A stretch of 64,000 nucleotides of DNA, taken from Dehalobacterium formicoaceticum (GTDB lineage: Bacteria; Bacillota; Dehalobacteriia; Dehalobacteriales; Dehalobacteriaceae). The stretch covers positions 3,569,501-3,633,500 of the forward strand of contig NZ_CP022121.1 of NCBI RefSeq assembly GCF_002224645.1, in the 5' to 3' direction. Both the position numbers and the translations under genes were made by a program. Of the stretch, positions 2,690-21,098 are shown piece after piece (the stretch's first letter is position 1; the number at the start of each line of letters is the position of its first letter). The notes beneath the pieces were generated by a model. That model saw nothing but the letters and a program-made list of their open reading frames with translations. It searched no databases and was not told the origin of the DNA.

Positions 2690-2705
2690 AGAAAAAAACA
2701 ATAAC

Positions 2706-2749
2706 CCTGTATAAAGGTTTATCATGTTTTTGATAAACATTTATACAGG
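2706..2749. terminator. Long hairpin downstream of istB, possible two-way terminator
   Basis: Arms 2706-2724 and 2731-2749 pair at 18 of 19 positions around a 6-nt loop. On the + strand no T-run follows. On the minus strand the hairpin is followed, about 7 nt on, by seven T (the A-run at 2692-2698). So it looks more like an intrinsic terminator for transcription coming through the array from the right than for istB. Confidence 0.6.
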
Positions 2750-2893
2750 ATGTAACAAGCGATAGCGCGTTAGCATTCATCGTGAAACAATGCTCTTTGA
2801 AAACTAAATATGCTTATGAAACGACTAAATTTTTTTTTCTTAGTGGCCGAAAATTAAATGACTATATGGCCTAATTTTAAGTTGACAAATACA

Positions 2894-2898
2894 AACTT
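2894..2898. repeat. Target site duplication of IS21 element, right copy
   Basis: AACTT directly after the terminal ACA. It is followed by the remaining 34 nt of the interrupted spacer (2899-2932). Confidence 0.85.
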
Positions 2899-2932
2899 GC
2901 ACTTAAGAAAAACATCGACGAAATAAAACGTG

Positions 2933-5900
2933 GTTTCAATCCCTTATAGGTAGGCTAAAAACCTAGACCTCAAGTGACGAGTGCTGCCATTTTTTGAAGT
3001 TTCAATCCCTTATAGGTAGGCTAAAAACGTAAAATTCGTCATCAAACATATGGATTCCATGTACAGTTTCAATCCCTTATAGGTAGGCTAAAAACAATAC
3101 CATATCGGCGGCATTGTCCCCGACACAGCGGTTTCAATCCCTTATAGGTAGGCTAAAAACGCAGATATTAAATACTTTACCAATGCAGAATACAGAGTTT
3201 CAATCCCTTATAGGTAGGCTAAAAACCGGACAATCCGTCCGCGGCATGAAGGTGAAGTTTAGGTTTCAATCCCTTATAGGTAGGCTAAAAACCGGCAATC
3301 TCAAAAACGCTGGCGCAAATTCAATCGTTTCAATCCCTTATAGGTAGGCTAAAAACGAATACGTGATTCCGTGTCTTGCGCGTTCATACCGTGTTTCAAT
3401 CCCTTATAGGTAGGCTAAAAACGCCGGATCACCGCAACGAACTTCTCCGCCAGCGTCAGTTTCAATCCCTTATAGGTAGGCTAAAAACTCCGTGCCATGG
3501 TAAGTCTCATAGTCGGCAGCATAGTTTCAATCCCTTATAGGTAGGCTAAAAACGCAAGGGGCTACCAATCCCCTATGGGGAGAAAGAGGTTTCAATCCCT
3601 TATAGGTAGGCTAAAAACGACGAGACGCAAATTATATTATCTTGCCGATGAGCGTTTCAATCCCTTATAGGTAGGCTAAAAACCAGGCCTAATATCTTTG
3701 CCGTGGATGTGATTTCGGCGTTTCAATCCCTTATAGGTAGGCTAAAAACCCAACAAATGCCCAACAAAAAAATCATGTTGGGCCGTTTCAATCCCTTATA
3801 GGTAGGCTAAAAACGTAGCTGAGGGGAGAGTGATAACGGCATGAGAGATATGTTTCAATCCCTTATAGGTAGGCTAAAAACCAGTAGGTTGCAAGCATAT
3901 CTTCGTCTATTCTATCCAGGTTTCAATCCCTTATAGGTAGGCTAAAAACCAGCTTTTCTCCCGGTGATGCCGGATACGGCATATCTGTTTCAATCCCTTA
4001 TAGGTAGGCTAAAAACGTTTACGGCTATATATATCATGCTCGTCCCAAATATTGTTTCAATCCCTTATAGGTAGGCTAAAAACATTTTGATCCTGATGAA
4101 ACGCCGCGCTTTCCTTTTAGTTTCAATCCCTTATAGGTAGGCTAAAAACGCAAGTGAAGCTGGTCCTTTAGCGGTATTAGATATGTTTCAATCCCTTATA
4201 GGTAGGCTAAAAACGACGAAAGAAGTGAAATGCGGCATATGTAACTATGGTTTCAATCCCTTATAGGTAGGCTAAAAACTTGGAAAGCCGCTGATTGACG
4301 ATACGGAGATTGTCGGTTTCAATCCCTTATAGGTAGGCTAAAAACCCGGATACTTCCTGCCGCTGCCCCATCATAGATATATAAGTTTCAATCCCTTATA
4401 GGTAGGCTAAAAACGTACATTTCCCTGACAGGCTGCGTCTTACCGGATATGCGTTTCAATCCCTTATAGGTAGGCTAAAAACAGCAGAAAGCAAGAAAAA
4501 ATCATTCAGGAAAAAGGTAGTTTCAATCCCTTATAGGTAGGCTAAAAACCAGTTTTACCGGGGAGACGATGCCCCTTAATGAGTTGTTTCAATCCCTTAT
4601 AGGTAGGCTAAAAACGCAGAACCACTAAGGGTTTTGAGTTGATCGGAAATAGTTTCAATCCCTTATAGGTAGGCTAAAAACAGGCCATGCTTGGCCAAAA
4701 CTGGGCGCACCGTATCAAGTTTCAATCCCTTATAGGTAGGCTAAAAACAAGATGCCATAAATAAATTAAATGAGATACTAGAGGTTTCAATCCCTTATAG
4801 GTAGGCTAAAAACACTAAACAAAAAGAAAATATAGAGCAGCTGCTGCAGTGTTTCAATCCCTTATAGGTAGGCTAAAAACGTATATAAATATATTACAGG
4901 GCAATGGAGGGAGATAGTTTCAATCCCTTATAGGTAGGCTAAAAACCTGATACTGTTGGTGCAGTAGGCGATACACTTGTCCGTTTCAATCCCTTATAGG
5001 TAGGCTAAAAACAATATGCCGCCTGATGCGAACGATCCGAAAGTTATGGTTTCAATCCCTTATAGGTAGGCTAAAAACGATGAACGATGGCTTGATAAGA
5101 TTGAGTTGGAGCGAGTTTCAATCCCTTATAGGTAGGCTAAAAACGATTAGTCATACTCTTTTGATTGTTAAGATTACGGTTTGTTTCAATCCCTTATAGG
5201 TAGGCTAAAAACGTTGAGATGGGTAGGATTACGCAAGCACAGTATGAAGTTTCAATCCCTTATAGGTAGGCTAAAAACGAGAAAGTAGCATCAGCTATTT
5301 GCAAGGGTTTTTGGTTTCAATCCCTTATAGGTAGGCTAAAAACGGAGGAACAGGCGGTTGATATGGTGCTATCTCCTGCGTTTCAATCCCTTATAGGTAG
5401 GCTAAAAACCGGGGAACGCAGACGGGAATTATATAGAAAGTATATGGTTTCAATCCCTTATAGGTAGGCTAAAAACTTTGGACAGCATGGGCTATGATGA
5501 TGAGTCCTCCGGGTTTCAATCCCTTATAGGTAGGCTAAAAACGTTTCATAATTTGAAAAGGTTCAGCATCAGGAATGTGTTTCAATCCCTTATAGGTAGG
5601 CTAAAAACTTTTTCTCCGCCAGTTTATACCCACAGGCGTATTGGTTTCAATCCCTTATAGGTAGGCTAAAAACGATACCAATGATCCGCAGAACTTTTAT
5701 GGCACGACTGTGTTTCAATCCCTTATAGGTAGGCTAAAAACGGTGTTTTAAATGGAACTAGGACACAAAAGTTTCGAGTTTCAATCCCTTATAGGTAGGC
5801 TAAAAACGTTGTCTTACGTCCAGATAGATACTCCATATGAGGCGTTTCAATCCCTTATAGGTAGGCTAAAAACGTGTAAGGGAAAAAAGGTGGTGGAGGA

Positions 5901-6541
5901 CGTGAGCAAGGTTTCAATCCCTTATAGGTAGGCTAAAAACCATATCGTCTGTGTCATAGTTGGACATAACAGCCGTGTTTCAATCCCTTATAGGTAGGCT
6001 AAAAACTCATACTTAACACCCAAATCGGGACCAGTCGATTTTGTGTTTCAATCCCTTATAGGTAGGCTAAAAACCGGCCCAGCGGTAGAGAGAATGGCCG
6101 AATTGGGAAGGTTTCAATCCCTTATAGGTAGGCTAAAAACCTAGAATAAAATCATATCCAAGTTTCATGTGCTGACGTTTCAATCCCTTATAGGTAGGCT
6201 AAAAACCAGCAAGGAATCGAACTTCTGTATTTAGCCTCTGAAAGTTTCAATCCCTTATAGGTAGGCTAAAAACGAAATAACTAATTACACAAAATACGAA
6301 ACACTCCCTGTAGTTTCAATCCCTTATAGGTAGGCTAAAAACTTTTCTCTGGCGGCGTCGGACAGGCTCTTGTAATTCTGTTTCAATCCCTTATAGGTAG
6401 GCTAAAAACGACTAAATGATGCGGGGATGGGGGTTTTAGATCCAAGTTTCAATCCCTTATAGGTAGGCTAAAAACAAACATTTCCAGTAAAGGAAACTTT
6501 TGAACCGACTTGTTTCAATCCCTTATAGGTAGGCTAAAAAC
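2933..6541 (-). CRISPR. CRISPR array, leader-proximal part, 55 repeats
   Basis: I counted 55 copies of the same 30-nt repeat, from 2933-2962 to 6512-6541, with spacers of about 34-38 nt. I saw no sequence variants among the repeats. Bases 2899-2932 are the remaining 34 nt of the spacer cut by the IS21 insertion. The last repeat abuts the AT-rich leader next to cas5, so new spacers should be added at the 6541 end. The repeat sequence and ATTGAAAC handle fit the I-B and III-B genes beside it, so one array probably feeds both complexes. Short chance ORFs run through the repeats and are not genes. Confidence 0.99.
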
Positions 6542-6825
6542 CCATTTTACCCGCATTAAATCAGTATTTATGATTAGACATTCTAATCCCAATAAATTGT
6601 ATTTTTCCTACATCCCGCTTACTAAGCCATATCTTCTGTCGTCGATCTCCAGACATTTTTACCTTATTGCACATCGACGACAGTTTAAAATAACTCAATT
6701 AAACACAAACTTTTAGGAATTGTTAAAAAAGAGTTAGCCTCTTGACAACTAATTATACCACTAAAACCTTTTAAACTATACTCTAAGATACTTTTTTCTC
6801 AAAAATTTATCTTGCTCAAAGGGGA
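6542..6825 (-). promoter_or_regulatory. CRISPR leader
   Basis: A 284-bp AT-rich gene-free stretch lies between the first repeat (6541) and the cas5 stop (6826), where a leader is expected for an array read on the minus strand. It holds an 11-bp perfect inverted repeat, CTGTCGTCGAT at 6636-6646 and its complement at 6673-6683. A TATAAT on the minus strand is at 6752-6757, but I see no convincing -35 partner, so the promoter is not placed. No degenerate repeat copy is seen in it. Confidence 0.8.
6636..6683. repeat. 11-bp perfect inverted repeat in the CRISPR leader
   Basis: CTGTCGTCGAT (6636-6646) and ATCGACGACAG (6673-6683), separated by 26 bp. It is unusually GC-rich for the surrounding leader. 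It could form a stem in the leader transcript or be a protein-binding site for adaptation or promoter control. Function unknown. Confidence 0.7.
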
Positions 6826-7521
6826 TTAAATCAGGCATATCAAATCCTCCCCAAAATGAGCTAAACTGAGATCCAGGGGTGAATCGTCTTCACATTTTTT
6901 AGGAATAAAAGCAATGGATTTCCCATCCTTTTCATAAAGAAAATCTATCGACTTTTCAAAGGTTCGCCGCCCTTTATACTTATACATAAACCCGCCTGCC
7001 CGGCAATAGTAACGATCCGCTTTGAGAACTATTTCCCGGATAAGAGCCGTAGGCACAACCGTTTTGGGCTCGATCTCCTTTCCTTCTGGCACCATATAGG
7101 ATACTTCCGGATAGACCCGGTAAAGCATCGGCTTCGTCAGGGCATAGGCAACACCTAAATAAGTAGTGTAAATCGCCCTTTCCCGGGTGAGAAATTCAAA
7201 TAACTGCTCTGTATATTCTTCTCCGGTGTAATAGATACGATAGCCGGGATTTACCAGCAGTTCAATGGTGGTCGGACGGTTAAAGGTGCTCCCCGAGTCT
7301 TTCCCCAGCATGGACATCTGTTGCGCAACCGTTCGTACCGGTCGCAGCAGTCCAATGCCTATCCGGTCATCAGTCACAAAGTCCTCAATTCCCAAAATAG
7401 CTCCTACCAACCCTTTGGCCGCCGTAGGCGTAATAAAGGGATATGTCATTTGGGTCGCCGTGGTGTCAGGACGGCGAAAATGGCCTACAGTGCCCAAGAC
7501 ATCAAATGCCAGTCCTTTCAT
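6826..7521 (-). CDS. cas5: Type I-B CRISPR protein Cas5
   Basis: A 231-residue RAMP protein of the Cas5 family. The N-terminus KGLAFDVLGTVGHFRRPDTT followed by FITPTAAKGLVGAILG (about residues 29-44) is typical of Cas5 in Cascade. In the complex Cas5 holds the 5' handle of the crRNA and contacts Cas8. A clear AAAGGAG lies before the ATG. It is the last gene of the cas operon, 41 bp after cas7, and ends 284 bp before the first repeat. Its position after cas8b and cas7 marks the I-B module. In many I-B loci cas3 comes next, but here the leader and array follow instead. Confidence 0.93.
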   Translation of the reverse strand: MKGLAFDVLGTVGHFRRPDTTATQMTYPFITPTAAKGLVGAILGIEDFVTDDRIGIGLLRPVRTVAQQMSMLGKDSGSTFNRPTTIELLVNPGYRIYYTGEEYTEQLFEFLTRERAIYTTYLGVAYALTKPMLYRVYPEVSYMVPEGKEIEPKTVVPTALIREIVLKADRYYCRAGGFMYKYKGRRTFEKSIDFLYEKDGKSIAFIPKKCEDDSPLDLSLAHFGEDLICLI

Positions 7522-7562: not shown

Positions 7563-8513
7563 TTACCACAGCGGCTGTTGCCAAGGTTGGATATCGTTAT
7601 TGATGGTTACTCCGGGGTGAGTCCAAATCCGGCATTGGGCTATCTTATCTTGTCTCTCAGCAACCACTGCCAAAAGCCGGGTCAAATCAAAGGAAACATC
7701 CTGTAGGGATGAAGGCAGTTTACCGGCTGCTTTCCATTCCCCAGCATCGGGAGACATTGTGATCAGATCTTCCAGATAACCAATTCGGTAAAAGGGATCG
7801 CTGTATTCAATATGAACCAAAATCAGCGGCTGCTGTTGCCCCCTCCCTCTGGCCTGGCGGTGCTGAGTTCCCTGCCACAGTGCCCGAAGCAGCAATTCCT
7901 GATCCTCTGGAGTCATATCCGAGTGTTCCGCCGCCTTCGCGTTGATCACCGCCGGCATAGCAAAGACGGCAAAGGGTAGGGTATAGCTGGTCCAAATCGT
8001 CCCTTGGGTCTTTCCCTCCCCATCATCAGTAGTATCAGTACTGGGCATGACCACCGTCCCTTGTACATATTGGGTGTCCACAGGATGAAGGGAATGGGCC
8101 CATCCGAATTGAACCGGTCCGGTCAGATTGAATTTGGGTTTCACCGAGTAAACGATACCGAAGGTGCGCACATCAAAGCAATGTTCGATCAAGACACTCT
8201 TCATGTCTTCCTTGGCCTTTTTTTCTTTCCCCACACTTTTAGCAATCCCTGCCGCCAAACTGCCCCGGCCAAGTAGTTTCCCTTTGTCGTTTATCTTCTC
8301 TTGAACAAAGATATGGTTTTTACTGTCCTTTCCTCCGTCTGATTCCAAATCAATCACAAAATCACGAACATCCCTTTTAATGCTCACATCGCTTAAGGAG
8401 ATCCGCCCATCTTCTTCGGGAAACAACCGCCTGGCATCACTGTCATTTAAGGGATCCCTGTTGGGGATTCCATCCTTAACCGATTTGACAAACAAAATCT
8501 CGCCGCTATTCAT
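7563..8513 (-). CDS. cas7: Type I-B CRISPR backbone protein Cas7 (Csh2-like)
   Basis: Cas7 subunits form the helical backbone of Cascade along the crRNA. Visible family features are the N-terminal GEILFVKSVKDGIPNRDP, the DVRTFGIVYS segment (about residues 135-145 of the longer frame), and TGPVQFGWAHSLHPV after it, all typical of the Csh2/DevR-like I-B family. The open frame extends to 8570, but I choose the ATG at 8513. It overlaps the cas8b stop by 8 bp, has an AAGG upstream, and begins at the usual family N-terminus (about 316 residues). Expression is probably coupled to cas8b. No frameshift is seen. Confidence 0.93.
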   Translation of the reverse strand: MNSGEILFVKSVKDGIPNRDPLNDSDARRLFPEEDGRISLSDVSIKRDVRDFVIDLESDGGKDSKNHIFVQEKINDKGKLLGRGSLAAGIAKSVGKEKKAKEDMKSVLIEHCFDVRTFGIVYSVKPKFNLTGPVQFGWAHSLHPVDTQYVQGTVVMPSTDTTDDGEGKTQGTIWTSYTLPFAVFAMPAVINAKAAEHSDMTPEDQELLLRALWQGTQHRQARGRGQQQPLILVHIEYSDPFYRIGYLEDLITMSPDAGEWKAAGKLPSSLQDVSFDLTRLLAVVAERQDKIAQCRIWTHPGVTINNDIQPWQQPLW

Positions 8514-10563
8514 TATCCTTGCCCCCATCCTCTTCTCTAATTTCAGTATCGAGTTCATCTCCATCGTCATTTTTCTTATCCGATTTATAAAGTAAATAAC
8601 CGGACCAAAAGGCGGTCATAAAGGTATCTTTTTCCGAAATTAGGTTATTCTCTTTTTCCAAAAATCCCAGCAGGACTTGAGCCAGCACGGGGCGGAAATT
8701 ACTTCCCAGCTTCATAGACCATTGCTGGGCCAGTTCCTCACAACGCAGCAAACCATTCTTCCAGATCATTTCCGGGGTCAATTTGCTGCCGAATTTCATC
8801 ACCCGTTGTTTGACAAAGTCCTTGCCCGTTTTTTTGTAATAAGAGTTGGAAAACTGTTTAAGCAATAAACCGGCAGCAAAACCTAAATGTTCTGTTTTTG
8901 TCAGGTGGCATAGCTCCAGCTTGCCCTGACCATAAAGGGTTTTAAATTCATCCCAATCCGACAATGTTTTCACTCCCCCTTCCTTGTGTAAAATTTGTTT
9001 TTCATATTGTTTAAAAAAATATAAGAAACTGTAATGAAAGACCAATTCTTGGATCATTTGCCCACGGTCTTCTTTATTGGCCAATTCGTTCAGCTTCCGG
9101 GCAGTTGCCATGTACAACCGCTCTAATCTGAGTGGCTCTTTGTGAAAGACGGTCCGCAGACTTTCCCACACATAGCCCGAACCATAAACATTAGCCAAGA
9201 GTGCAGGAAGATTCTGAGTGCGATAAACGGGCTGTTCCTTCACACCAAAGACCTTCTGAATCTTACCTATTTCTCTCGCGCCTAACTGGTGCATTATTTT
9301 TTCCAGCTGACTGGCCACGCTGGGAATCACATCTTCGATCACCGCCCGAATGTGCATGTTGCCCCGGGATAAATCACCGGAGTAATAGAGGATGGTCAAG
9401 CGATGCTCATCTCCCATTTCCGGAACAATCCTGTCGATGCCCGCCAATATCTTTAAATGCAGATCACTGTCGCTTTGTTTCTCGTTGCTCTTTTTCAGCA
9501 ACTTTTTATATCTTGCAAAGAGTTGCCGGGAATCGCCGTCCGTCAGAGGCATAACCATGGGAATGCCGTAAATGGATTCAAAACTGTCCAAACTCATCAT
9601 TTTTTTTGCTTCCACACTGGTAATAGGGGCGAACATCTCTTTGAGGATAGCATTGGAAATGGGAACCTGAATTTCCTTGAGGAAATGGACACCGTATAAA
9701 TAGGCAGCATAGCTTTCCTCGTCCACTTTAATCCCCTTCGTCCATTCATCGTCCTTCCAATAGATAGAACGAGGCGATTCCCAGGTAGGAGACAGCCAAA
9801 GCCAGGATTTGTTGTAGATCGACACTACCTCATCCGCCTTCCGATTAGTGAAGGTGGATACAGCATTCTTCTCTTTACCCAATTCAGCAGCCTCGTAAAA
9901 CTTGGCTTGGCCGATTCCTTTCAGAACCGCTTCCCCATCTAAATGAAGGTGGGCTCCGGGAGTCAGCGGACTTTCATTTATCCACAGAGAATGCTCATTC
10001 TCTCTCTTTTCTTGATATTTATGAAACATCGGCAACTCTTCATCGAAGATCATCATGACTCCCAGCTGCTTCTCCTCATTGATCAGGTCAGACCCTTTGG
10101 TAGCCAGAAATTCAGCAATCCGGTCGGCCAAAGCCTCTCTCTCTATCGCCGTTCTATCCTGATAAAATAAAGTTTTTCCTAATCGGGGTAAAAGAAACTC
10201 CTTTTTAAAGGCCGCTTTATCCTTCATGGCTTTAATATGAGGGTCGTAAACCAGATAGCACGGAAGGGGATAAATTCCTTGGGCATGGAGAGGGTTCCCT
10301 CCATTGGGATAAAAAATAGGAAAGGCCACATTTCTTATAGAATTGACTTCGAAGGTTTCCTTCTTCTCCTTGGTAACCTTGTCACCCAGTTCCATCAACT
10401 GAAAGCCGATTCTTTTTTTCGCAATCTCAATCAGGAAGACATGGCGAAAGTAGTTCTTGCAGTTTTCACTGCTGACATCAGTCAACAGCCGAATTTTGTC
10501 CCGGCAAGGCATATCGCTGTTTTTGATAGGACGGCCGATGCGGATAATAGCTTCGGCAAGCAT
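8506..10563 (-). CDS. cas8b: Type I-B large subunit Cas8b (TM1802/Csh1-like)
   Basis: A 685-residue protein at the Cascade large-subunit position, just before cas7 and cas5. Sequence character fits the TM1802/Csh1 family: a YPLPCYLVYDPH segment near residue 100, and GDLSRGNMHIRAVIEDV in the middle (about residues 400-417), with a helical C-terminal half. In I-B systems Cas8 recognises the PAM and recruits Cas3. Family assignment rests on overall character and context rather than on one decisive motif. The ATG follows AAGAAGGTGATCCA, and the gene starts 38 bp after the preceding CARF gene. The acidic C-terminal tail (DDGDELDTEIREEDGG) is low complexity. Confidence 0.85.
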   Translation of the reverse strand: MLAEAIIRIGRPIKNSDMPCRDKIRLLTDVSSENCKNYFRHVFLIEIAKKRIGFQLMELGDKVTKEKKETFEVNSIRNVAFPIFYPNGGNPLHAQGIYPLPCYLVYDPHIKAMKDKAAFKKEFLLPRLGKTLFYQDRTAIEREALADRIAEFLATKGSDLINEEKQLGVMMIFDEELPMFHKYQEKRENEHSLWINESPLTPGAHLHLDGEAVLKGIGQAKFYEAAELGKEKNAVSTFTNRKADEVVSIYNKSWLWLSPTWESPRSIYWKDDEWTKGIKVDEESYAAYLYGVHFLKEIQVPISNAILKEMFAPITSVEAKKMMSLDSFESIYGIPMVMPLTDGDSRQLFARYKKLLKKSNEKQSDSDLHLKILAGIDRIVPEMGDEHRLTILYYSGDLSRGNMHIRAVIEDVIPSVASQLEKIMHQLGAREIGKIQKVFGVKEQPVYRTQNLPALLANVYGSGYVWESLRTVFHKEPLRLERLYMATARKLNELANKEDRGQMIQELVFHYSFLYFFKQYEKQILHKEGGVKTLSDWDEFKTLYGQGKLELCHLTKTEHLGFAAGLLLKQFSNSYYKKTGKDFVKQRVMKFGSKLTPEMIWKNGLLRCEELAQQWSMKLGSNFRPVLAQVLLGFLEKENNLISEKDTFMTAFWSGYLLYKSDKKNDDGDELDTEIREEDGGKDNE

Positions 10564-10601: not shown

Positions 10602-12407
10602 TTAGCCCTTCTCTTCTTCCAGCAGAATCATCTCGCCGATGACATAAGGGTTTTCATGCTGCTCATAGAGTGAACGCCGATCAATAAATGCCACTTGTTT
10701 TGTAGCTTTATTCTTTCTCGTAATTTGATTCAGAACATGTTGCATAACCGTTGTTCCTCCGGTTAAGTTATACACGACCTCTTCAGCTTTAGCCATCAGT
10801 GGTTCTGCTTCTGCTGAAGCCAGCTTTTTTTCCATAAACCCGGCAAAGGGATCTTCCATGCAATAAACTGCCAGCTCTCCTTGCCAATTCACTTTTTCCA
10901 ATATCTCATTAATTGCTCCCTTGGTTTTATCGGAAAGAATTACAAAAAGATAATCCGGTTCTAATGTAGCTAAGGCTGAGTACAAGGATCCTTTTGAATT
11001 TCCTAAGGCACAAATGAGGAGCATCCCTTCACCCTGTTTCTTATAGAGCTCCCACTTCTCTTGCATATATATCGAATCCTTCAATTCCTGCCACTTTTCT
11101 TTAATTTCCTCAATTGCCTTTAATGATAAATGAACATTATCTTCTTTAAAACCACAATGAGATAGACCATTACGCTTGTTAGTAATGTAATCCCACTTTT
11201 CTGCCAGCCACTTCTGCTCTTCGGTTAATGGCACCTTACCGTTTTCCTTGGCTTTACTCTGCACAAATTTCATCATCAGCCCCAGAGAATACTCTATGGG
11301 CCTCCTTTTTTTATAGGGCAGCCAATCTATACCAGCGATTATCCCTTTACCTTGCCTATGTTCCTGATGAAATAATGCAACATTTACTATCCATTCACGC
11401 ATCAGAGCTGTTGCACTATTGATATATCCTTGCCCAAAATACTCATCCACAAGTGCAGCTTGACGATTTATTTCCGTATAGTCCAAAAATAACTTCATCT
11501 TCTTATCATTGTCGTTAATTTGTGATAAAGCATAAGGCTCGATGAAAGCTTTAACTTGACCAAAAAGTTCTTCCGGAAGGGGCATCCGCTCCATAAGATG
11601 TCCAGGTAAATCCTTCTCTAATAGTTGGTGTAGTCGATTAGCTTCCAAACCAAATTCAATGGGAAGTGCCTGTTCATAGGCTGATGTTGCCTTAGAGAAG
11701 ACCTCACTCAGTTTTCTGATTTGAGAATAGGGCATACAGTCCTTCCCTTGCACACCCTCCGGTATTTTGGTGAAAGGCTCCAGCAAATTGATAATGTAAT
11801 TGGCTTGCCCTGTTTCTCGGAAAATCCGTGTCGCAAAGAACCATTCTACCATTTCAAGGATTAAGGAAAGATCGAGTAATGGCTTAGGTTCTTCTTTTAT
11901 CTCAACGTTGCCATAGAAAGTGGAAATTAACCCCACATTGCGCAGTGCTTTAAGGTAAAGTGCTGCTGTAAAATACAAAAAAGAGAAACTTCTATAGCCA
12001 TGAGTCAGGTCGAGGGTTAAATATGCGTTTTCAGGCACGCACTTCAGAATGCATCGAAGAATCTCCCAAATCTCTTCCTCGTTTTTCCCATCTGATATAT
12101 CAAGTGCTGATACGCGGATGGGTTTTGTTATATGAGTACTAAACTCTCCAGACTCAATGTGCTCCTTAAATTGGGGAAATTGCACCTTAGCTATCTCAGA
12201 TGTACAAAGAATTATGACCTCATCAGGAAGTCTATCCTCAGGTAAAAGTTGCAGCAAAGCCAAGGGAGATTGGTTGGCTTCCGCTACTTTGTCTCCCAGC
12301 GCATATTTCGTCGGTCTTGGAGTAACGCTAAGAGCAGCGATAAGTATATGTTTTTTCATATTTCTGACCATATTTTCCTCTCCGCTAATTTTTTTAACAA
12401 GTCTCAT
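10602..12407 (-). CDS. CRISPR-associated DxTHG protein, CARF-HEPN-CARF-like ribonuclease
   Basis: A 601-residue protein. The N-terminal CARF domain carries LDLTHGYRSF (about residues 132-141), the DxTHG motif of Csx1/TM1812-type proteins. A helical middle follows, with RNGLSH (about 404-409), matching the RxxxxH active site of HEPN ribonucleases. The C-terminal part (from about 457) begins a second Rossmann-like segment, MLLICALGNSKG, and carries YNLTGGTTVMQHVL, which resembles the NxTGGTK motif of another CARF type. Known biology: cyclic oligoadenylates from Cas10 bind CARF and switch on HEPN RNA cleavage. The second CARF is inference. The start could instead be 12371, which has a GGAGAGG site. 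The gene lies between cmr6 and cas8b. Confidence 0.82.
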   Translation of the reverse strand: MRLVKKISGEENMVRNMKKHILIAALSVTPRPTKYALGDKVAEANQSPLALLQLLPEDRLPDEVIILCTSEIAKVQFPQFKEHIESGEFSTHITKPIRVSALDISDGKNEEEIWEILRCILKCVPENAYLTLDLTHGYRSFSFLYFTAALYLKALRNVGLISTFYGNVEIKEEPKPLLDLSLILEMVEWFFATRIFRETGQANYIINLLEPFTKIPEGVQGKDCMPYSQIRKLSEVFSKATSAYEQALPIEFGLEANRLHQLLEKDLPGHLMERMPLPEELFGQVKAFIEPYALSQINDNDKKMKLFLDYTEINRQAALVDEYFGQGYINSATALMREWIVNVALFHQEHRQGKGIIAGIDWLPYKKRRPIEYSLGLMMKFVQSKAKENGKVPLTEEQKWLAEKWDYITNKRNGLSHCGFKEDNVHLSLKAIEEIKEKWQELKDSIYMQEKWELYKKQGEGMLLICALGNSKGSLYSALATLEPDYLFVILSDKTKGAINEILEKVNWQGELAVYCMEDPFAGFMEKKLASAEAEPLMAKAEEVVYNLTGGTTVMQHVLNQITRKNKATKQVAFIDRRSLYEQHENPYVIGEMILLEEEKG

Positions 12408-12434: not shown

Positions 12435-13574
12435 TTACATCTTCATGATTCCATAGCCCACAGCGGTTTTGGCACCTACACCATGCTCCAATAAAGCTTT
12501 CTTGATCCAGGTAGAGGCTACGTCCATAACCGATGACCCTTTAAAATAATCCTTATCTATGGCAACATTCTTTTGGGCATCAATGCCGATAACAAAGCAA
12601 AATTTAGTCTCTGCAATGGTAATGAAGGGAATAAGTTTGGTATCTCCATAATCCCTAGGTGCCTTACCTTTCGAATAGTATTCGGAATAATGAGGCGTCA
12701 TGATATCGACGATGATCTTGGGCTTTCCCTGAGGAAATGCATCATAAAAAAATACATTGCCCTTATTGCCCTGACTTCCAAAGATCAGCTTGAATCCTTG
12801 GTCGTCTAATGCCTTTTTTTCGTTGCCATCAAAACAATTACTTATTATCCATGAACGGGTAATCCCTTTTATAGCGCTGCCGGGAATATATGGTATCCCA
12901 TAAGTATGATGCAGAGTTAGCGAGGTTTCATAAACTGATGCACCTCCCAAACCAACTATCATCCGCCATTCTGGTTCCAGAGTCAAGCTTTTGGTTAAAA
13001 GGCCCAGCTCGTTTAATGCTCTTAATTGCCGCGCAGAAAACTCTTGGAAATTGATCTGCGGGAATTCATGCTTGTAATTGCCAAAAGATGATTTCATCTT
13101 TTTGTCCGCCGCCTTGTAGAAGAGAAACTTATCATCCTGAACCCTCGGAAACCGATTCAGCATGAGCTCATAATTACTGATCTCTTCAACATCACCATAA
13201 TTAATAATAAGCACACGAGTATCCCCTGGTAAATATTTAGGTAGTGGTTTTTGAGAATTATCGTTACCTTTGGACTGCGAATTATCACCTTGCCGATCAC
13301 GCTGGTTTTTAGAGTTATTTTTTCGAGCAGAAGTATTTTGTTGAGAATTTGCTCGTGCTTTTTCAGGTAGTATAATTTTTAAGTCTGTTATTGTGGCAGG
13401 ATCTTTTTGATCTGATACTTTAAACTCTACTTCAACTTCCTTAGTAAGCTGGCTGACAACTTCTGCAGAAATATCTTTTATGTTAAAAGCATATTCTTTT
13501 AAATTGTCTCCAATAATGATGCCTTTGCCCCTATTGTTTTTAAATTGAAGAACCTTTATGCGTTCAGATTTCAT
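12435..13574 (-). CDS. cmr6: Type III-B RAMP protein Cmr6 with N-terminal extension
   Basis: A 379-residue protein. The C-terminal two thirds is Cmr6 (Cas7-like): VGLGGASVYETSLTLHHTYG, then IPYIPGSAIKGITRSW (about residues 230-245), and the closing glycine loop VGAKTAVGYGIMKM. Cmr6 caps the Cmr backbone at the 3' end of the crRNA. Residues 1 to about 75 form an extra domain (KVLQFKNNRGKGIIIGD, FNIKDISAEVV) that looks like a cold-shock-type OB fold. A linker of about 40 residues rich in N, Q, S, K and D joins it to the rest. Cmr6 proteins are usually shorter. The ATG overlaps the cmr5 stop by 11 bp. Confidence 0.92.
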   Translation of the reverse strand: MKSERIKVLQFKNNRGKGIIIGDNLKEYAFNIKDISAEVVSQLTKEVEVEFKVSDQKDPATITDLKIILPEKARANSQQNTSARKNNSKNQRDRQGDNSQSKGNDNSQKPLPKYLPGDTRVLIINYGDVEEISNYELMLNRFPRVQDDKFLFYKAADKKMKSSFGNYKHEFPQINFQEFSARQLRALNELGLLTKSLTLEPEWRMIVGLGGASVYETSLTLHHTYGIPYIPGSAIKGITRSWIISNCFDGNEKKALDDQGFKLIFGSQGNKGNVFFYDAFPQGKPKIIVDIMTPHYSEYYSKGKAPRDYGDTKLIPFITIAETKFCFVIGIDAQKNVAIDKDYFKGSSVMDVASTWIKKALLEHGVGAKTAVGYGIMKM

Positions 13575-13971
13575 CTTCCACTTCTCCTTTAATCGTTCCT
13601 TCGGAGAAACGCCGTAACCAATTAAATAATGCTAAGACCTCGTTTGTGACACAACGATAAGAGGCGGAATCTAAATTAATGATTTGTTCGATTAATTCTC
13701 CTTGTCCATCAAGAAAGTTTGCATCTCGCTTTAACCACTCCCCTGTTTGCTTATAGATTAATCGATAGGCCTTCTCTTTATCTTTAGATTTAACAAAGGC
13801 GAAGGTAGGCCCCAAGCCATTGGTCTTGATATACATTGGGATTTTCTTTACATAAGCTTTGTACTTAGCTTCTTCCCCTTTAAGCTCATCTTTAGCCTCT
13901 AAAACTTTTTTATATGCAAAGGAAGCACGGCCTTGTTCAATTCCTTTAATACTATCCTCAGTGTTTTTCAT
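13564..13971 (-). CDS. cmr5: Type III-B small subunit Cmr5
   Basis: A 135-residue, mostly helical protein of the Cmr5 (Cas11) family. The N-terminal GIEQGRASFAYKKV and the IKTNGLGPTFAFVKSK segment (about residues 49-64) are characteristic. Cmr5 lines the belly of the Cmr complex beside the target RNA. The length is normal. It starts in a TAATG overlap with the cmr4 stop and overlaps the cmr6 start by 11 bp, so the three genes are translated as a coupled set. No defect seen. Confidence 0.93.
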   Translation of the reverse strand: MKNTEDSIKGIEQGRASFAYKKVLEAKDELKGEEAKYKAYVKKIPMYIKTNGLGPTFAFVKSKDKEKAYRLIYKQTGEWLKRDANFLDGQGELIEQIINLDSASYRCVTNEVLALFNWLRRFSEGTIKGEVEDEI

Positions 13972-14918
13972 TAACCCTCGACCCCCAATAGCCTTTTCTC
14001 GACACGGGTAATCCCTTTACCAATAGTGGCATCGCCGCCGATTTGTAAAATTTGCGGCAAATAAGTCTGAAAGAATTCCATTACGGCGCCTTCACCATCA
14101 CTCAGCACACTTTTTTCAGGATTAAACACAGGGGCTGCCATCGCCAAAGCATATAGAACAGTCTCTGCGGGTAAAAACTCCTCGGTAAATAAAGCCCCAT
14201 CAGCCACAGTTCCCGTTTCATTATTGATCTTAGTTCGTGTGATGACCTCCGTAGACCATTGAACAAAATCCCGAAATTCATCGTTACTTAATACAATGAT
14301 ATCTTTGCGGATTTTCTCTTTCAATGTTTTAAATTCCTTAACATCGGGAAGCAGAATTTCGGAAAGCCATTGAGTTAGAGCGGTGCATTGCTCATCTTCT
14401 TTATGGTTAACCTTGAAAGTATATTCCTCTAAAATTACTTTATCGTCACGAACAAAGAGGTTGCTGCCATGAGGGGTGGCTTTGTCTCCAGGTACCTCAA
14501 AGCTGACATTTACCCCACATAGTCCCAATTCATTGATGAATTTTTCCAATACCTGGGGACAAGTGATCCAAGCATATACACCTTTTACCGATTTTACAGG
14601 AAAAAGCAGCACCCTGGCATCTGTAATACCAAGGGCAGCGGCAAAGTCTCCTCCTTTTTCCGGCCCAAAAAGAAGATTAACACATTGACCTATCTCCTGA
14701 GCACTTAATTTTCCCCCTCGAAACTGAATATCGTATAAATCCTTACATCGCTCAAATCGCTCTCGTATACTTCCTTTAAGACTGGATCCTTCTATCTTGG
14801 GAAAGCCTGTATGTCTTTCTCTTTGAATCGGCATATCGATGATTCCTAAATCACTGCCGCTGCCGGCATGTAATGGAGTCTCGCATATTAAAAAAAACGG
14901 TTTAGCAAGTTTATACAT
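13971..14918 (-). CDS. cmr4: Type III-B RAMP protein Cmr4
   Basis: A 315-residue Cas7-family backbone subunit that cuts bound target RNA at 6-nt steps in known Cmr complexes. Visible: ETPLHAGSGSDLGIIDMPIQ (about residues 13-32), followed by RERHTGFPKIEGSSLKG (about 33-49), the canonical Cmr4 N-terminal block. It includes Asp28, in the position of the catalytic aspartate of other Cmr4 proteins. The C-terminal glycine loop is LQIGGDATIGKGITRV. An AGGAGG lies before the ATG. A 29-bp gap separates it from the CARF-RelE-like gene, and cmr5 starts at its stop. This subunit is intact, unlike cmr2 and cmr3. Confidence 0.96.
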   Translation of the reverse strand: MYKLAKPFFLICETPLHAGSGSDLGIIDMPIQRERHTGFPKIEGSSLKGSIRERFERCKDLYDIQFRGGKLSAQEIGQCVNLLFGPEKGGDFAAALGITDARVLLFPVKSVKGVYAWITCPQVLEKFINELGLCGVNVSFEVPGDKATPHGSNLFVRDDKVILEEYTFKVNHKEDEQCTALTQWLSEILLPDVKEFKTLKEKIRKDIIVLSNDEFRDFVQWSTEVITRTKINNETGTVADGALFTEEFLPAETVLYALAMAAPVFNPEKSVLSDGEGAVMEFFQTYLPQILQIGGDATIGKGITRVEKRLLGVEG

Positions 14919-14947: not shown

Positions 14948-16126
14948 CTACCGGCTAATAGCAACTGAGATAAGCTCACGATCTTTCAAGTTTTCGTATT
15001 CCTCTTTTAGTTTGCGTGGATAATTTTTATCAATTGTATCATCAGTAATGAAATAATAGTTATAAATTACCAACTTATTGCTTTTAATATCATACCAGTA
15101 CTGAATCCGAATCTGTTGAGGATTTGTGTGTTTATAGACATAGGGCTCTTTATCATTTAAATGGTTGAGATCTCCATTATTTTTAATCCCTGAAAAATCG
15201 TTGATTTCACGCAATCGTCTTAAAAGTTCTATGATGGCTTCTTCTAAATGCTTTTTCTTAGTTTGTTCTTCTTTTGAATACTTGCCTTTATAAGGAAAAT
15301 AAACTATATCGTATTTACTATTGTACTCTACCCAAAGCATAGTCCCGATACCATTTAAGTAGATGATATTTTCACCATCGATTATGTCCTCGGTGATGCA
15401 GTTTTTAAAGTCATCCCCAATATTATTTTTTCGGCGATAATCTTCCCAGCTCTCAATGATACCATCGTAAAGTTCTTGAAATCGCAGATGGTATTTCTCA
15501 AAGAGGCCTTTGTCCAGGTTGATAGGCGCCTGGGGGATGCGAATGAGTTCTTCTGTATCCTCAAATATGTAGTAAATTGGTACATTATTGATTTGACTTA
15601 GAATAGATAAATAGGGAATCACCCCCTTATATCCGCCTGTCACATTCATGATCACGTTTTCTGTATAGCCTCCGGTTATCTCGCTAAAGCGTTTGACCAG
15701 ATTGACAATTCCCTCTTGCTCGAAACGTTTGCGATCTTCTACCTGTAAGCCTTTTATTCTATCTTCTCTTTCATAATCAAAGTGCACCGTGATTGGACTA
15801 CCTGGCCGATTATTAAAGTACTGGGTGATAATATCCGCAGCTAACCGGGAAAGAATCGTTTCTGTACAAATCAAGTAAACTTCCAGGTCTTCATTGACCT
15901 GCTCATAAATCTTCCACAGACTTTTTATCTCAGCAGATGCATCTTTATTATCTTCAGCCCAACTTATAAGCTCATTTTGAACCGGTGTGATTCGGGTACC
16001 CAGCAACTTATCCCAATTCTCTGCTTTTTCACCTTTCAAGACCTGAAGCGTAATTTTAAGTTTATTTGATTCTTCTTCATAATTTTTAAAAATCGATGTC
16101 CCAACGGGTGTGATCACCTTCTTCAT
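14948..16126 (-). CDS. CARF-domain effector with a RelE-like C-terminal domain
   Basis: A 392-residue protein. The N-terminal CARF domain (about 1-190) has ITPVGTSIFKNY at the start and IMNVTGGYKGVIPYLSI (about residues 158-174), as in the APE2256/Csm6 type. The C-terminal part (about 290-392) has two helices (KKKHLEEAIIELLRRLREIN), then strands YVYKHTNPQQIRIQYWYD and KLVIYNYYFI, and ends with a helix. This is the order and spacing of RelE/HigB mRNA-interferase toxins. CARF-RelE proteins (Cami1) are known to cut mRNA on ribosomes once cyclic oligoadenylate binds. The RelE call is inference from pattern. The ATG overlaps the cmr3 stop by 4 bp, so it is made together with the Cmr complex. Confidence 0.75.
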   Translation of the reverse strand: MKKVITPVGTSIFKNYEEESNKLKITLQVLKGEKAENWDKLLGTRITPVQNELISWAEDNKDASAEIKSLWKIYEQVNEDLEVYLICTETILSRLAADIITQYFNNRPGSPITVHFDYEREDRIKGLQVEDRKRFEQEGIVNLVKRFSEITGGYTENVIMNVTGGYKGVIPYLSILSQINNVPIYYIFEDTEELIRIPQAPINLDKGLFEKYHLRFQELYDGIIESWEDYRRKNNIGDDFKNCITEDIIDGENIIYLNGIGTMLWVEYNSKYDIVYFPYKGKYSKEEQTKKKHLEEAIIELLRRLREINDFSGIKNNGDLNHLNDKEPYVYKHTNPQQIRIQYWYDIKSNKLVIYNYYFITDDTIDKNYPRKLKEEYENLKDRELISVAISR

Positions 16127-17216
16127 TCATCCATTCCTCCTACTAATCCAATGCCATACCCTTCCATAGCGTAAGGAGTATTCTCAAACGGCTGATAATG
16201 AAAGACCTCTTTCACCTTTTCAGCCTCGCCTTCAAGGAGTTCAAAATAATATACACTCCCGGCAGGTACAGCCCGGTGCATAGGCTTAGGCTTCCGTTTT
16301 TTAATATCAAATCCACCGATAAAGAGATGTTTTCCTAGTGCTGCTGTTAGCAATTTAACTTTCAACCCCTGGTAATGGCCAAAAAAAGTATCCGGATTTA
16401 TCCAGTCCGGAAGCCATCCGTTATTCAAAATGGCCGGAGTTAAGAGGTAAATTTTAAAAACTTGGTGCTTAGGAGCCGAATAAGCCGGTATCAGGGAATT
16501 TTTATCTAACTCATGGATATGCTTGTAATGAGTGGCTTTCCCTTCCCCACCAAGTTTTAAAAACCCCTGTTCCGGTAAATTAATTCCCTCATAGTCAATG
16601 ATAAAGGAACATTCCTGGTGCGCTTTTCCTTTATCTTGTCGTGGCGAAAGTCTTAGCATGCCGGCACGATAGAGCATCTGATCCTCTGCTGAACGACCAG
16701 GAGTAAGCTTTATCCCAATTTTCGCTTCTTCTGTAACAAAATCTTTGAGATCAGAGAAATAAAATTGCTTGCTGCTATTGGCAAGATATTCACTAAGCGT
16801 CACCTGATCAATCCACCCATCGCCTATCGTCTCAGCAATAAGATCCGGCGGGGAGGCCAATACCTTCGGCAGGGAACAATTGGATAAAGAAGGGGTATCC
16901 AGAAGCTGCAAAGGAAAGGCGCAATTATCACCTGCGTTTTTTTCCTGGATCAAGTCCCGGGGCAGTGGAAAGTAATAGCTGTCGCCCCAGGCTTTTAAGA
17001 ACATGCCTCGGATCCTTAAGGATGATGTTGGATCATCTGATGTTCCGGCAAGGGGGAAATATTGGGGATTTTGCGCAAAAAAGGCCGTTCGTAAGGCACC
17101 ATAGAATACTGACGGATACGGCGGAAAAAGACTTTCACCCCAATTATTTTCTCCCCTGTTAAATGGTTTTCCATTACGAAAAAAAGAGTATCCAATGGTT
17201 CAGTCTGCAACAGCAC
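16123..17216 (-). pseudogene. cmr3: Type III-B RAMP protein Cmr3, frameshifted near its start
   Basis: Two reading frames together make one Cmr3 of about 364 residues. Frame one starts at GTG 17216 and reads LLQTEPLDTLFF. The second frame then carries on with FRNGKPFNRGENNWGESLFP, then GALRTAFFA, and runs to the glycine loop GYGIGLVGG. The switch is at a run of seven T on the minus strand (17179-17185), and eight T would restore the frame. Downstream, HRAVPAGSVYYFEL is typical of Cmr3. Cmr3 is Cas5-like and holds the crRNA 5' tag next to Cmr2. As written only an N-truncated protein (ATG at 17004, 293 residues) could be made. The start overlaps the cmr2 stop by 17 bp. Confidence 0.9.
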
Positions 17217-18959
17217 GAATTTCCACCCCCTTAGCCAAAAAAGAAATAATCTCTAATAATCCAAGAAAATCTTCCAGATTATTTTCGATATATAAATTAT
17301 TCAACACCTTTTTCATCTCCGCAATTTTTTGCTCCTTATCCTGTTTCATCCTGGTTGAAGCTTCTCCGGCCGAAAGATCAAGATAAGACCGAGTAAGAAG
17401 TCTCCCCAACTCGCTATCTACCATCCCATCAAGATTCTTAATCTTCATATTTCCTTCAAAATGGATAAACTCAGCGCAAAATTGGTTTATAAAGTTAGTG
17501 GTAAAATGATCTCTCAACCCATCTAAGAGAAATTTAAGCTGGTCCGCAAACCAACCATGGGAGTTTAGCCATTGCGTTTTAAATTTGATGATCTCTCCTG
17601 AACGTTTCAGCACGGCAAGGCTTAAGGCATCTTTGCCTCCCATATTCTTCGCCTCTTTTTCCATGCGTCTTGCCCATTGAAGCGCAACACTTAAAGGGGT
17701 CATAAAGTGGCTGACTGCCACTCCAGCCGAGAAAGTCAGCTTTTTTGAACTAAACTGGGATACGTCGATTTTATCAAATTCTGCCCTTAGTTCCTTTAAG
17801 ATACCGGGCAGATAATTCAGGTTTACAAACCCTAAGAAATCATCGCCGCCTGCATACACTGTCACTCCTTTGGGAGCCGTTAAAATCTTTTCCGCCGCCT
17901 TACGGGCAAATTGTGCTAACTCCTGACTTAGATGTTTATGGAAAGCTGTCAATTGTTCTTTATTCTGCTCACTGAGCATTTTCCCAGAGAGCCACTTCCC
18001 CATATTGTCTCCGTCGAAGATTATGACTGCGTAATATGATGTGACCTGAAAATGATTCTTTTTTATTGCCCGGTAAATCTGATCGACAATTTTCAACTCC
18101 TGCTCTGTTCCTCTTCCTGCCAGGTCTTGGTTATTAAGGTGTGCATAGACTAATTCTTCATCAAATTCCTGTTCAAGCAGAATGGCGAGTTCGAGATTGT
18201 CTTTGGCTATTTTATCTAAAATATCTGCCAGTGCAATACGAGCTGTTGAAGGAAAGGATTCTTGATAGAGCAGATCTTCTTCCTTGTGGTCTAAGAAATA
18301 CTTTGGTGCGGTTCTTTTCAAGAAAGCCACGGCACCCAATGCTTCACCCTGCGCCATGTACTTTAAGGGAATTCTGTTGTTTAATTCCACCGCATTTTCG
18401 GCCATATCCGCCGATTTATGCCCATATCGATTTTTCCTATAAAAAAGAGCATTATGTTCTCCAGTCAGTGTGCATTTTCTTCCCCGTCCTCCCGGAGAGG
18501 AGAAAAGGAGCGAATCTTGGTTTGCCCCAAGTGACTTTCAATCGTTTTATAGGCCTGCGTATAACCTGCGTCCATGGGATCAAAAACCCAATAAAAATGG
18601 AAGTAGCTTTTGATCTGCTGCCATGATCCCGAGGGCTTGGGAATACCGAAAATTCCAAGACAATACTCAAAAACTTCTTCAAGTTTCTTATAAATTTCTT
18701 TCTCTAAAGCAAGGCCCAGCTCTTTCAAATTTTCTTCCGTATCCTCTTGAACAATAGCTAAAAAGCGATTAGGCAGTGATCGTGACTTCACATTGGGAAA
18801 TACGATCTCTCCTTGCCACTTCTCTTTTACTATCATGATAGCCTGACGGCAAAGATAGGAAAGAATCGCACTTCCAGAATATAAATCCTGCGTTTTTCTT
18901 GATTGTTCAATAAACCCCTGCACAGGCGTAATTGAAAAAATAAATAGATACCTTCTCAT
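17200..18959 (-). pseudogene. cmr2: Type III-B signature protein Cas10/Cmr2, frameshifted, no HD domain
   Basis: Two open frames form one Cas10. 18959-18465 encodes the N-terminal palm (YLFIFSITPVQGFIEQSRKT, DLYSGSAILSYL). 18405-17200, extended upstream in frame, encodes KCTLTGEHNALF, VIIFDGDNMGKWLSGKML and the cyclase motif YAGGDDFLGF. The switch falls at four A on the minus strand (18475-18478), where one more A gives REDGEE-KCTLTGEH in one frame, about 586 residues in all. There is no N-terminal HD nuclease domain, so DNA cleavage is not expected, while GGDD predicts cyclic oligoadenylate synthesis. The zinc knuckle seems reduced (one Cys in CTLTGEH). The start shares ATGA with the cmr1 stop. 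Confidence 0.92.
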
Positions 18960-19897
18960 GATAAAATCGCCTCTCTAAACGCTTTTCTCGTGTCATTTCT
19001 CCTTAAAGTAAAGCCCGGCTCTAAAGCCAGGTGCAAAGAAGTATTAATGGGCCAAACTTTCCCTTGCTCACCTTTTATGATGGATACATATTCCGGCGAA
19101 GATAATCGTTTGCGTTCACCATAGCTACCATAGCCGGTATAGTCGCTGTTATTCTCATGAGAGATATTACTAATTTTGCGAAGAAGCGGCCGAAAATCTT
19201 GCTCCGGCTTTCCCAATGCGATGGTTTCGATATAGGGATAAGAAGCGTTTTTGTTATTTTCCAGTTGAATCATTTCATTTTTTAGGGTGAATTTATTTTT
19301 AGATAGGAAATTAAGTCTGCTTAAAATCTGAGGTAGTATGTCTTCCTGCTTTAGTTCAGCAATCTCTGATTTCAGGTTATTGCAGCGCAAAATACGAAAG
19401 CTCCCAAACCCTCTTCGGCTACGTCCGCCCATACCTCCAAGTAAAGAGGTTAGTTCGAACAGCGTCTGCAAATGGGCTGGAGAGAATTCATCCGGCATAC
19501 GGATAAATGAGAATTCTACTCCAAAATTGGTATACATCACTATTGCATTGGCATTAGCCTTGGCTTTATATTCTTTTTTATGAGGCAACATTGCCTCTTT
19601 TCTTATATCAACTTTTTTATGTGTCATTCTTATCGCAAAACAGCTTCTTCCTTCTTGTTTAGTACTTTTTTCTCCTTCTGCCTTCCCGTTCAGATCAGCT
19701 TTAGTATTTGTCCCGCCGAAAATCCGCCCTTCCAGTGATCTTAGGGCGGATATATTCGCTTCAGCTTGCGCAGCACGCCACCAATAGCGTAGAACACCCT
19801 TCATGGACGGTGCTCTGAACTCCGGGTTATTTTGATCCGCTCCATACTGGAACAATGGAGAAATAAGTTCACATTCGAAACTCAGCTTTTCCAACAC
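18956..19897 (-). CDS. cmr1: Type III-B RAMP protein Cmr1
   Basis: A 313-residue Cas7-like protein. The N-terminus ELISPLFQYGADQ with EFRAPSMKGVLRYWWRAAQA (about residues 26-45) is the Cmr1 hallmark. The glycine-rich loop LLGGMGGRSRRGFGSF (about 150-165) follows. Cmr1 sits at the far end of the Cmr complex, where it helps target RNA binding. The start is GTG at 19897, behind GGGGAGGAGTA. It overlaps cmr2 by 4 bp. A 181-bp gap separates it from cas6, longer than any other gap in the operon. I see no convincing gene or terminator in that gap. No frameshift. Confidence 0.95.
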   Translation of the reverse strand: MLEKLSFECELISPLFQYGADQNNPEFRAPSMKGVLRYWWRAAQAEANISALRSLEGRIFGGTNTKADLNGKAEGEKSTKQEGRSCFAIRMTHKKVDIRKEAMLPHKKEYKAKANANAIVMYTNFGVEFSFIRMPDEFSPAHLQTLFELTSLLGGMGGRSRRGFGSFRILRCNNLKSEIAELKQEDILPQILSRLNFLSKNKFTLKNEMIQLENNKNASYPYIETIALGKPEQDFRPLLRKISNISHENNSDYTGYGSYGERKRLSSPEYVSIIKGEQGKVWPINTSLHLALEPGFTLRRNDTRKAFREAILS

Positions 19898-20078: not shown

Positions 20079-20819
20079 TCAAACGTCTGCAGCCTCCACA
20101 CATCCGAACCCTTGACTGTTCTTACTTCCGATTCCTCCATCCACTGCCAGTTGAAGCAGTTCATTTGCTCCCATTAAAAGCAACTTACCGGCATACCCTT
20201 TGATTACCGTGTTTTTAAAACTGACAATCTTCATCCTTTGTATTCCGACCGGTTTGATTTCCACTTCCCCTTCCGGTCCTTCTGCTGCATAAAGAGCCCG
20301 GTATTTCTTACGCAGATTTTCATTGAATAAGCGGGTATAATCTGTCTCCCCCGGTTGAAAATATACTGTATACTTTTTGCCGTCAGCTCTAAGCAGTGTG
20401 CTATACAATACCACTGGGGAAAGGGTTCTAACCATAACCTTATTTTGCTGCACCTCATATTGACGGACATTTATCCTGTCAATCGCAAGTTCCCGAGCAC
20501 CTATACGCATAACCCCCTTTGAGAGCAAGACATTGACTAATGACTGACAAAAATCTTGTAAAGGAGAGGATACGGTAAGCTTTATCTCTCCTTCAAAAGC
20601 TATGGTCTTTTTAATCCTGTCCATTTGATACGCACCTTGGATTAAAGAAAAGCAGAACATTTTAAAGGTGCGGGTTCCGTCTCGATAGCCCTTATTATGC
20701 AAAAAGGACGCCAGTTCCTGGTCGATAGAATTATAAAGGGCTGCTTGTATCAATTGATTATAATGAATTGGCAATACAACGGGTTCCCTTAGGGGTTTAA
20801 AATAAATCTCTAAATTCAT
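20079..20819 (-). CDS. cas6: CRISPR repeat endoribonuclease Cas6
   Basis: About 246 residues with the two-RAMP layout of Cas6. The C-terminal glycine-rich loop GGIGSKNSQGFGCVE (near the end) is diagnostic. A His near the N-terminus (PIHYNQLI) is a candidate catalytic residue. Cas6 cuts pre-crRNA inside the repeat to leave the ATTGAAAC handle and is the only processing enzyme in view, so it should serve both I-B and III-B modules. A frame with GTG at 20831 exists, but I prefer the ATG at 20819, with GGGAG upstream. It is the first gene of the cas operon. The 280-bp region upstream is shared with a divergent gene and must hold the operon promoter, though I cannot place it. Confidence 0.94.
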   Translation of the reverse strand: MNLEIYFKPLREPVVLPIHYNQLIQAALYNSIDQELASFLHNKGYRDGTRTFKMFCFSLIQGAYQMDRIKKTIAFEGEIKLTVSSPLQDFCQSLVNVLLSKGVMRIGARELAIDRINVRQYEVQQNKVMVRTLSPVVLYSTLLRADGKKYTVYFQPGETDYTRLFNENLRKKYRALYAAEGPEGEVEIKPVGIQRMKIVSFKNTVIKGYAGKLLLMGANELLQLAVDGGIGSKNSQGFGCVEAADV

Positions 20820-21034
20820 TTTCCTTACCACTCCCTATGTTTATCCTCTATTATCTTGATAATATATACAGTATTTGACACCAGAGCCCTCACTCCTCTT
20901 TTCAATAAGATAGCTATTTAATTAAAAAATGGACGAATATGGCAGCAATATACTTGGTTATAAAATGGACACCAAGATGAAAGCCGAACCAATATTGACG
21001 ACTCCAATTACAAACTATTAATTGGAATTTATTT

Positions 21035-21061: not shown

Positions 21062-21098
21062 ATAGATAATAATTAATATGGGCGGGAGGAGAGATCGG

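Follow-up and report, generated by a model that had tools for sequence, protein, structure and literature searches.

The window analysed here is a stretch of 64,000 nucleotides from Dehalobacterium formicoaceticum (RefSeq contig NZ_CP022121.1, positions 3,569,501 to 3,633,500). It contains a combined type III-B/I-B CRISPR locus with the gene order Cas6, Cmr1, Cas10, Cmr3, CARF-RelE, Cmr4, Cmr5, Cmr6, a CARF-HEPN-CARF effector, Cas8b, Cas7 and Cas5, followed by a CRISPR array (Table 1). The order from Cmr1 to the effector is the same in Peptococcaceae bacterium CEB3 (locus L001), where all genes are intact. In D. formicoaceticum, two of these genes carry one-base frameshifts: Cas10, which is split in a run of G, and Cmr3, which is interrupted in a run of T. 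The frameshifts reflect either homopolymer sequencing errors or an operon in decay. Another type III-like operon lies ∼14 kb outside the window (L097 1515-12702, genome G000). It encodes a Cas10-like protein with a GGDD motif, so that the messenger could still be made. Also present are a CARF protein, perhaps Can2-like, whose motifs include LLVGTNPLPNYVV and TGGTKAM, several RAMP-like genes, and probable Cas1, Cas4 and Cas3 genes. The neighbouring CARF-RelE protein carries a motif I (VGTS) and a motif II (TGGYK) that are both Crn1-like; judged from these motifs, it could be a RelE RNase that limits its own activity, and the messenger might already be degraded by it. Elsewhere in the window, a 259-aa ORF between segments of the CRISPR array (1910-2686) matches DrmD of DISARM (E=4.5e-38), an ORF at 21078-21536 contains nine-residue tandem repeats (MATKEDLSN), and tandem ∼294-bp repeats of 98 aa each at 57787-58545 perhaps belong to a repetitive surface protein.

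Table 1. Features of the type III-B/I-B locus, with positions in the window.
Feature	Position	Strand	Basis and remarks
CRISPR array	2932..6550		30-bp repeats GTTTCAATCCCTTATAGGTAGGCTAAAAAC, about 66-bp period
Cas5b	6826..7521	-	TIGR02592 E=1.9e-22
Cas7 of type I-B module	7563..8570	-	matches gene after Cas8b in L056 and L059, E=3e-114 and 2e-117
Cas8b (type I-B)	8506..10563	-	PDLC01483 E=1.3e-298; 38 bp downstream of effector
CARF-HEPN-CARF effector, Csx1 family, CARF2 clade	10602..12407	-	601 aa ORF
C-terminal CARF, predicted ring nuclease or sponge	10614..11030	-	residues 460-598; AlphaFold2, Foldseek, stand-alone homologues
C-terminal signature DRRxxxEQxxNPYVxGE	10632..10682	-	residues 576-592; D, R, R, Q, P, G at least 90% conserved
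Motif II NLTGGTTVM of C-terminal CARF	10743..10769	-	residues 547-555; GGTT invariant
DP motif (EDPFAGF) after β3 of C-terminal CARF	10836..10856	-	residues 518-524; D and P invariant
Motif I LGNSKG of C-terminal CARF	10989..11006	-	alignment; GxSxG invariant in 12/12
HEPN RNase domain	11073..11510	-	about residues 300-445; PADLOC CARF_HEPN profiles
HEPN active-site motif RNGLSH	11157..11174	-	residues 412-417; sequence
N-terminal CARF2 domain, predicted cA4 sensor	11772..12359	-	about residues 17-212; TIGR02221, TIGR02549
DLTHG motif of N-terminal CARF	11997..12011	-	residues 133-137; sequence
Cmr6	12435..13574	-	TIGR01898 E=1.2e-39; 27 bp upstream of effector
Cmr5	13564..13971	-	PADLOC Cmr5 E=6.5e-34
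Cmr4	13971..14918	-	TIGR02580 E=3.7e-67
CARF-RelE effector	14948..16126	-	PDLC01936 E=3.9e-123; PF09651
Cmr3, frameshifted near start	16123..17220	-	tblastn with CEB3 homologue and reading frames
Cas10/Cmr2, GGDD cyclase motif, split	17200..18959	-	tblastn with CEB3 homologue and reading frames
Cmr1	18956..19897	-	tblastn with CEB3 Cmr1, E=9e-57
Cas6	20079..20831	-	PADLOC Cas6b E=3.8e-81

The effector ORF has an ATG start with a GAGG ribosome-binding-like site upstream. Its gene shows a Csx1-type location, between Cmr6 and Cas8b and in an operon with Cmr1, Cas10, Cmr3-6 and Cas6. Residues 16-599 are covered by the PADLOC profile PDLC01840 (CARF2--CARF_HEPN_CARF) with E=1.2e-264, which at the level of sequence excludes a chance match, and two separate CARF folds are evident from AlphaFold2 models (full-length pLDDT 90.7) and Foldseek comparisons. 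A preliminary description of the locus had read CARF-HEPN-CARF in one chain, and this profile, together with the CARF fold modelled for the C-terminal domain, bears it out. The DxTHG pattern that it assigned to the N-terminal CARF is likewise present, as DLTHG at residues 133-137: the domain matches TIGR02221 (NCBIfam, E=1.4e-20) and exceeds the cut-off of the DxTHG domain TIGR02549, and D133, T135 and R139 are invariant across 13 relatives. Relatives of the csx2/TIGR02221 type also occur on plasmids. The HEPN domain is supported by Foldseek matches of the full model to Csx1-Crn2 and SisCsx1, and its R-x(4-6)-H motif is intact, with RN...H retained in the aligned relatives. The RNGLSH active site had been recognised correctly but placed at residues 404-409, eight residues ahead of its actual position at 412-417. 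The layout is already catalogued in PADLOC and is not new, which limits the surprise. A literature search for the CARF2-type CARF-HEPN-CARF architecture returned no functional study, the phrase matching only Csm6-2.

The AlphaFold2 model of the C-terminal domain has a CARF-like Rossmannoid fold (pLDDT 90.9, pTM 0.87), as the earlier reading of a Rossmann start and of an NLTGGTTVM motif had implied; the motif lies at residues 547-555. The best 50 matches of this domain in a Foldseek search of the PDB are essentially all CARF proteins (E 1e-6 to 2e-4), among them Cdn1, Cam1, Can2, Csm6, Cad1, Can1, Card1 and Crn1/Sis0455. By sequence, phmmer with the single sequence gave zero matches against the PDB, and profiles were required. 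The C-terminal end had also been proposed for profile searching, and this revealed stand-alone homologues outside HEPN proteins. Neither the domain nor these free homologues match any NCBIfam or Pfam family above cut-off, and the Crn1, Csx14 and Cas_APE2256 models give no profile match to them. PADLOC sees the free proteins only as the tail of CARF_HEPN_CARF, with weak matches to other CARF profiles in addition, and none of Pfam, NCBIfam and PADLOC has a model dedicated to the family.

In profile searches of 398 genomes from the phylum, the fused form is present in seven, to which CEB3 can be added; the CEB3 locus is also the sole relative recovered by a contig search with the full protein. 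The free form, of ∼140 aa, occurs in G059, G089 and G127, and in G204, where it is clipped at the contig end. A decayed free copy, a pseudogene, is found in G161 (L050, about 2600-3300), in which no Cas10 was found, whereas its congeners G089 and G127 keep both an intact C-terminal-type CARF and Cas10. In type III loci the free protein adjoins a CARF2-HEPN effector (L047, L049), a CARF9-HEPN effector (L048, a locus that also has WYL regulators) or a CARF4-PD-(D/E)xK nuclease (L051). No effector domain is attached to it, and for a free CARF of this kind the removal of messenger is a more fitting role than sensing. Because the same domain stands free beside several effector classes, a role as messenger remover is favoured for the fused domain too, and the free proteins may well represent a ring-nuclease family that is not yet described. 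The possibility of an anti-CRISPR was considered: no match was found in viral contigs, phages or plasmids, and Foldseek of the domain against viral models gave none at E≤0.001.

The two CARF domains of the effector are of different families. PADLOC assigns the N-terminal domain to CARF2 and places the C-terminal domain nearest to CARF1/CARF4, and each is found without the other, in CARF-HEPN proteins and as the stand-alone form, respectively. It had been proposed that the two CARFs of one chain form an internal pseudo-dimer, which would make the effector a monomeric enzyme like Can1, where two CARFs in a single chain form a monomer (PMC9704534). Such pairing is disfavoured by sequence comparison: the domains share 14% identity in an hhalign alignment, occur apart and are separated by the HEPN domain. 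Moreover, a monomer would contain one HEPN domain without the partner that HEPN RNases need, a partner which Csm6-2 supplies by two HEPN domains per chain (PMC11229360). The pseudo-dimer is therefore regarded as the most improbable arrangement of those considered.

Across 12 fused and free copies of the C-terminal CARF, residues G469, S471, G473, S492, D519, P520 and G550-T553 are invariant, and D576, R577, R578, Q583, P587 and G591 are nearly so. The invariant GxSxG, DP, GGTT and DRR elements are located in loops at the C-terminal edges of the strands, which is the ligand face of CARF domains. The mean conservation of these loops is 0.73, versus 0.47 elsewhere (p=7e-7), a contrast that is descriptive, as the loops were picked from the model and the alignment. 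A degenerate or purely structural dimerisation module that binds no ligand could be imagined from the departure of motif II from the Lys-bearing consensus, yet it is very improbable, given that conservation within the domain is highest in the ligand-face loops, which it has in common with the free proteins.

Comparison with Crn1 gives a divided picture. In motif I of Crn1 (Sso2081), G-T-S, Ser11 is critical and Thr10 is dispensable (PMC10018336), and the GTS motif is also seen in TtCsm6 (PMC10897365); the C-terminal CARF has GxS in 12/12 copies, with a variable middle position. In motif II, where K137 of TtCsm6 is needed for cA4 binding (PMC10897365), a threonine is found in 12/12 copies. The domain is not classified as Crn1 because this lysine is absent, and because the residue required in TtCsm6 is a threonine here, Crn1-type chemistry cannot simply carry over. 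The missing lysine would suit a non-catalytic sponge, which competes with the sensor CARF for the messenger without cutting it. However, the GxS of motif I positions the scissile phosphate in Crn1, and a pure sponge would have no need to keep it invariant.

A further indication of function comes from the distribution of Csx15/20-type genes. In a set of 32 CARF2-HEPN genomes including CEB3, these genes occur in 0 of the 10 genomes with the C-terminal-type CARF (8 fused and 2 free) and in 18 of the 22 without it (Fisher p=1.6e-5; p=2e-4 with one genome per family), p-values that are not to be read as those of independent trials. Only 3 supported phylogenetically independent contrasts emerge from a tree-aware test, none of them in the opposite direction, and the sign test is not significant. 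Ring nucleases seldom co-occur, more than one being present in 10 of 242 loci (PMC12409355), and the C-terminal CARF behaves in the same way, though over few independent contrasts; the exclusion is suggestive rather than proven. The whole-genome searches behind these counts, directed at Csx15/20-type genes, replace a first co-occurrence test that was restricted to neighbourhoods and gave p=0.002 to 0.06 depending on the choice of loci. A search for Csx16 had no positive control and its result is not used. Csx15/20-type genes were searched for and are absent from G127, G161 and G204 as well, and neither these nor Csx3 were found in a search of the effector's own genome.

In five CARF2-HEPN loci that lack the C-terminal CARF (L059, L060, L061, L067 and L068), a Csx15/20-type gene directly follows the effector gene. 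On the tree of the CARF-HEPN core, the fused proteins fall in a single supported half, inside which one Csx20-bearing subclade is nested, and this suggests that off-switch modules were swapped. Three CARF2-HEPN genomes (G356, G179, G049) have neither the C-terminal CARF nor Csx15/20, so that off-switches of these kinds are not present throughout. In a separate type III neighbourhood (L062 18471-19364), a Csx15-like domain is fused behind a domain resembling Schlafen/AlbA.

The exclusion also bears on the non-catalytic sponge. The C-terminal CARF apparently takes the place of proteins of the Csx15 type, and that family comprises both ring nucleases and cA4 sponges without enzymatic activity (PMC13148439). 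Since it has members of both kinds, the sponge is the closest rival of a ring nuclease, although it is still considered unlikely. Rather more doubtful is a role of the domain in sensing a second, different cyclic nucleotide, by which the RNase would gain another input. The two CARFs are of different families, the nearest families of the C-terminal one include CARF1, with cA6-using Csm6, and EiCsm6 depends on Thr114 in motif II (PMC7101355). Nevertheless, proteins that consist of this domain and no effector part are found next to several classes of effector, and exclusion with cA4-removing proteins suggests a shared role and not an added input. Among the functions offered in the preliminary description, the evidence speaks most for self-limiting ring cleavage. 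No positive evidence was found for two different ring ligands; these, like the pseudo-dimer, are made less likely by the distant relationship of the two CARFs and by their separate occurrence.

If the cell is to be spared, a type III CRISPR system needs an off-switch, and in many type III loci no ring nuclease is, to our knowledge, recognised. The effector is best explained, with a probability of roughly 0.58, as a self-limiting Csx1-type RNase of the type III-B system. This explanation is based on the observed domain make-up, the fold, the conserved active-site face, the free form of the domain and the exclusion with Csx15/20. In the proposed mechanism the effector would form a homodimer, in which the paired N-terminal CARF2 domains bind a cyclic oligoadenylate made by Cas10, probably cA4. 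Binding would activate the paired HEPN domains for non-specific RNA cutting. The C-terminal CARFs would pair on the far side of the HEPN domains and create a second, independent pocket, in which the same messenger would be cleaved, or perhaps merely sequestered, thereby switching the RNase off.

An off-switch at this position is in line with related architectures. PADLOC lists C-terminal fusions of CARF2-HEPN to Csx3, Csx16, Csx20, Unk_f1 and CARF, of which Csx3/Crn3, Csx16 and Csx20 are reported as ring nucleases (PMC12409355, PMC12830947), as is Crn2, which is likewise found at that end of CARF2-HEPN proteins. These known ring nucleases at the same end favour such a function for the C-terminal CARF. 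One relative (L071) carries a Csx3 domain at the same C-terminal end, and in G351 a Csx20-type match lies inside the CARF-HEPN reading frame. More tentatively, with odds slightly short of even, the C-terminal CARF and its free ∼140-aa homologues may constitute an undescribed CARF-type family of ring nucleases (or sponges), which lacks the motif-II lysine, has the DRRxxxEQxxNPYVxGE signature, replaces Csx15/20 in type III systems and was fused to Csx1 in one lineage. If the domain is a ring nuclease, this would explain why these effectors have no separate off-switch, and assays could be applied directly to a CARF family that lacks the usual lysine and whose members are small and easy to express.

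Compared with known systems, the effector is a member of the PADLOC group CARF2--CARF_HEPN_CARF (PDLC01838-01840), with the same domain order over the whole chain and no structural difference. Csm6-2 (CARF-HEPN-CARF-HEPN, PMC11229360) also has two CARFs and HEPN in one chain, but there the whole CARF-HEPN unit is doubled, whereas in the effector a different CARF is appended. A layout like that of Csm6-2, but of CARF2 type, is seen in an 833-aa protein with two CARF2-HEPN units per chain (L072 8204-10705). Can1 (PMC9704534) is similar in having two CARFs per chain, but is a PD-(D/E)xK DNase and a pseudo-dimeric monomer, unlike the effector with its one HEPN domain and two unlike CARFs. Crn1 (Sso2081, Sis0455) shares with the C-terminal domain the small CARF fold (Sis0455 match E=3e-5) and the GxS of motif I; the C-terminal domain differs in its GGTT without the motif-II lysine, in the DRRxxxEQxxNPYVxGE tail and in the absence of a Crn1 profile match. 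A further parallel is Csx1-Crn2 from Marinitoga (8y6z, 8y7g), in which CARF2-HEPN is likewise followed by a C-terminal messenger-handling domain. It is the best solved match of the full effector model (8y7g, E=1.9e-16) and the best profile match for CARF-HEPN (E=5e-37). Its C-terminal Crn2 is unrelated to CARF, in contrast to the CARF at that position in the effector. The Csx1-Crn2 fusion is a proven self-limiting RNase-ring nuclease (PMC7293037), and the effector, if the proposed function is correct, would be a second natural fusion of an RNase with its off-switch to set beside it.
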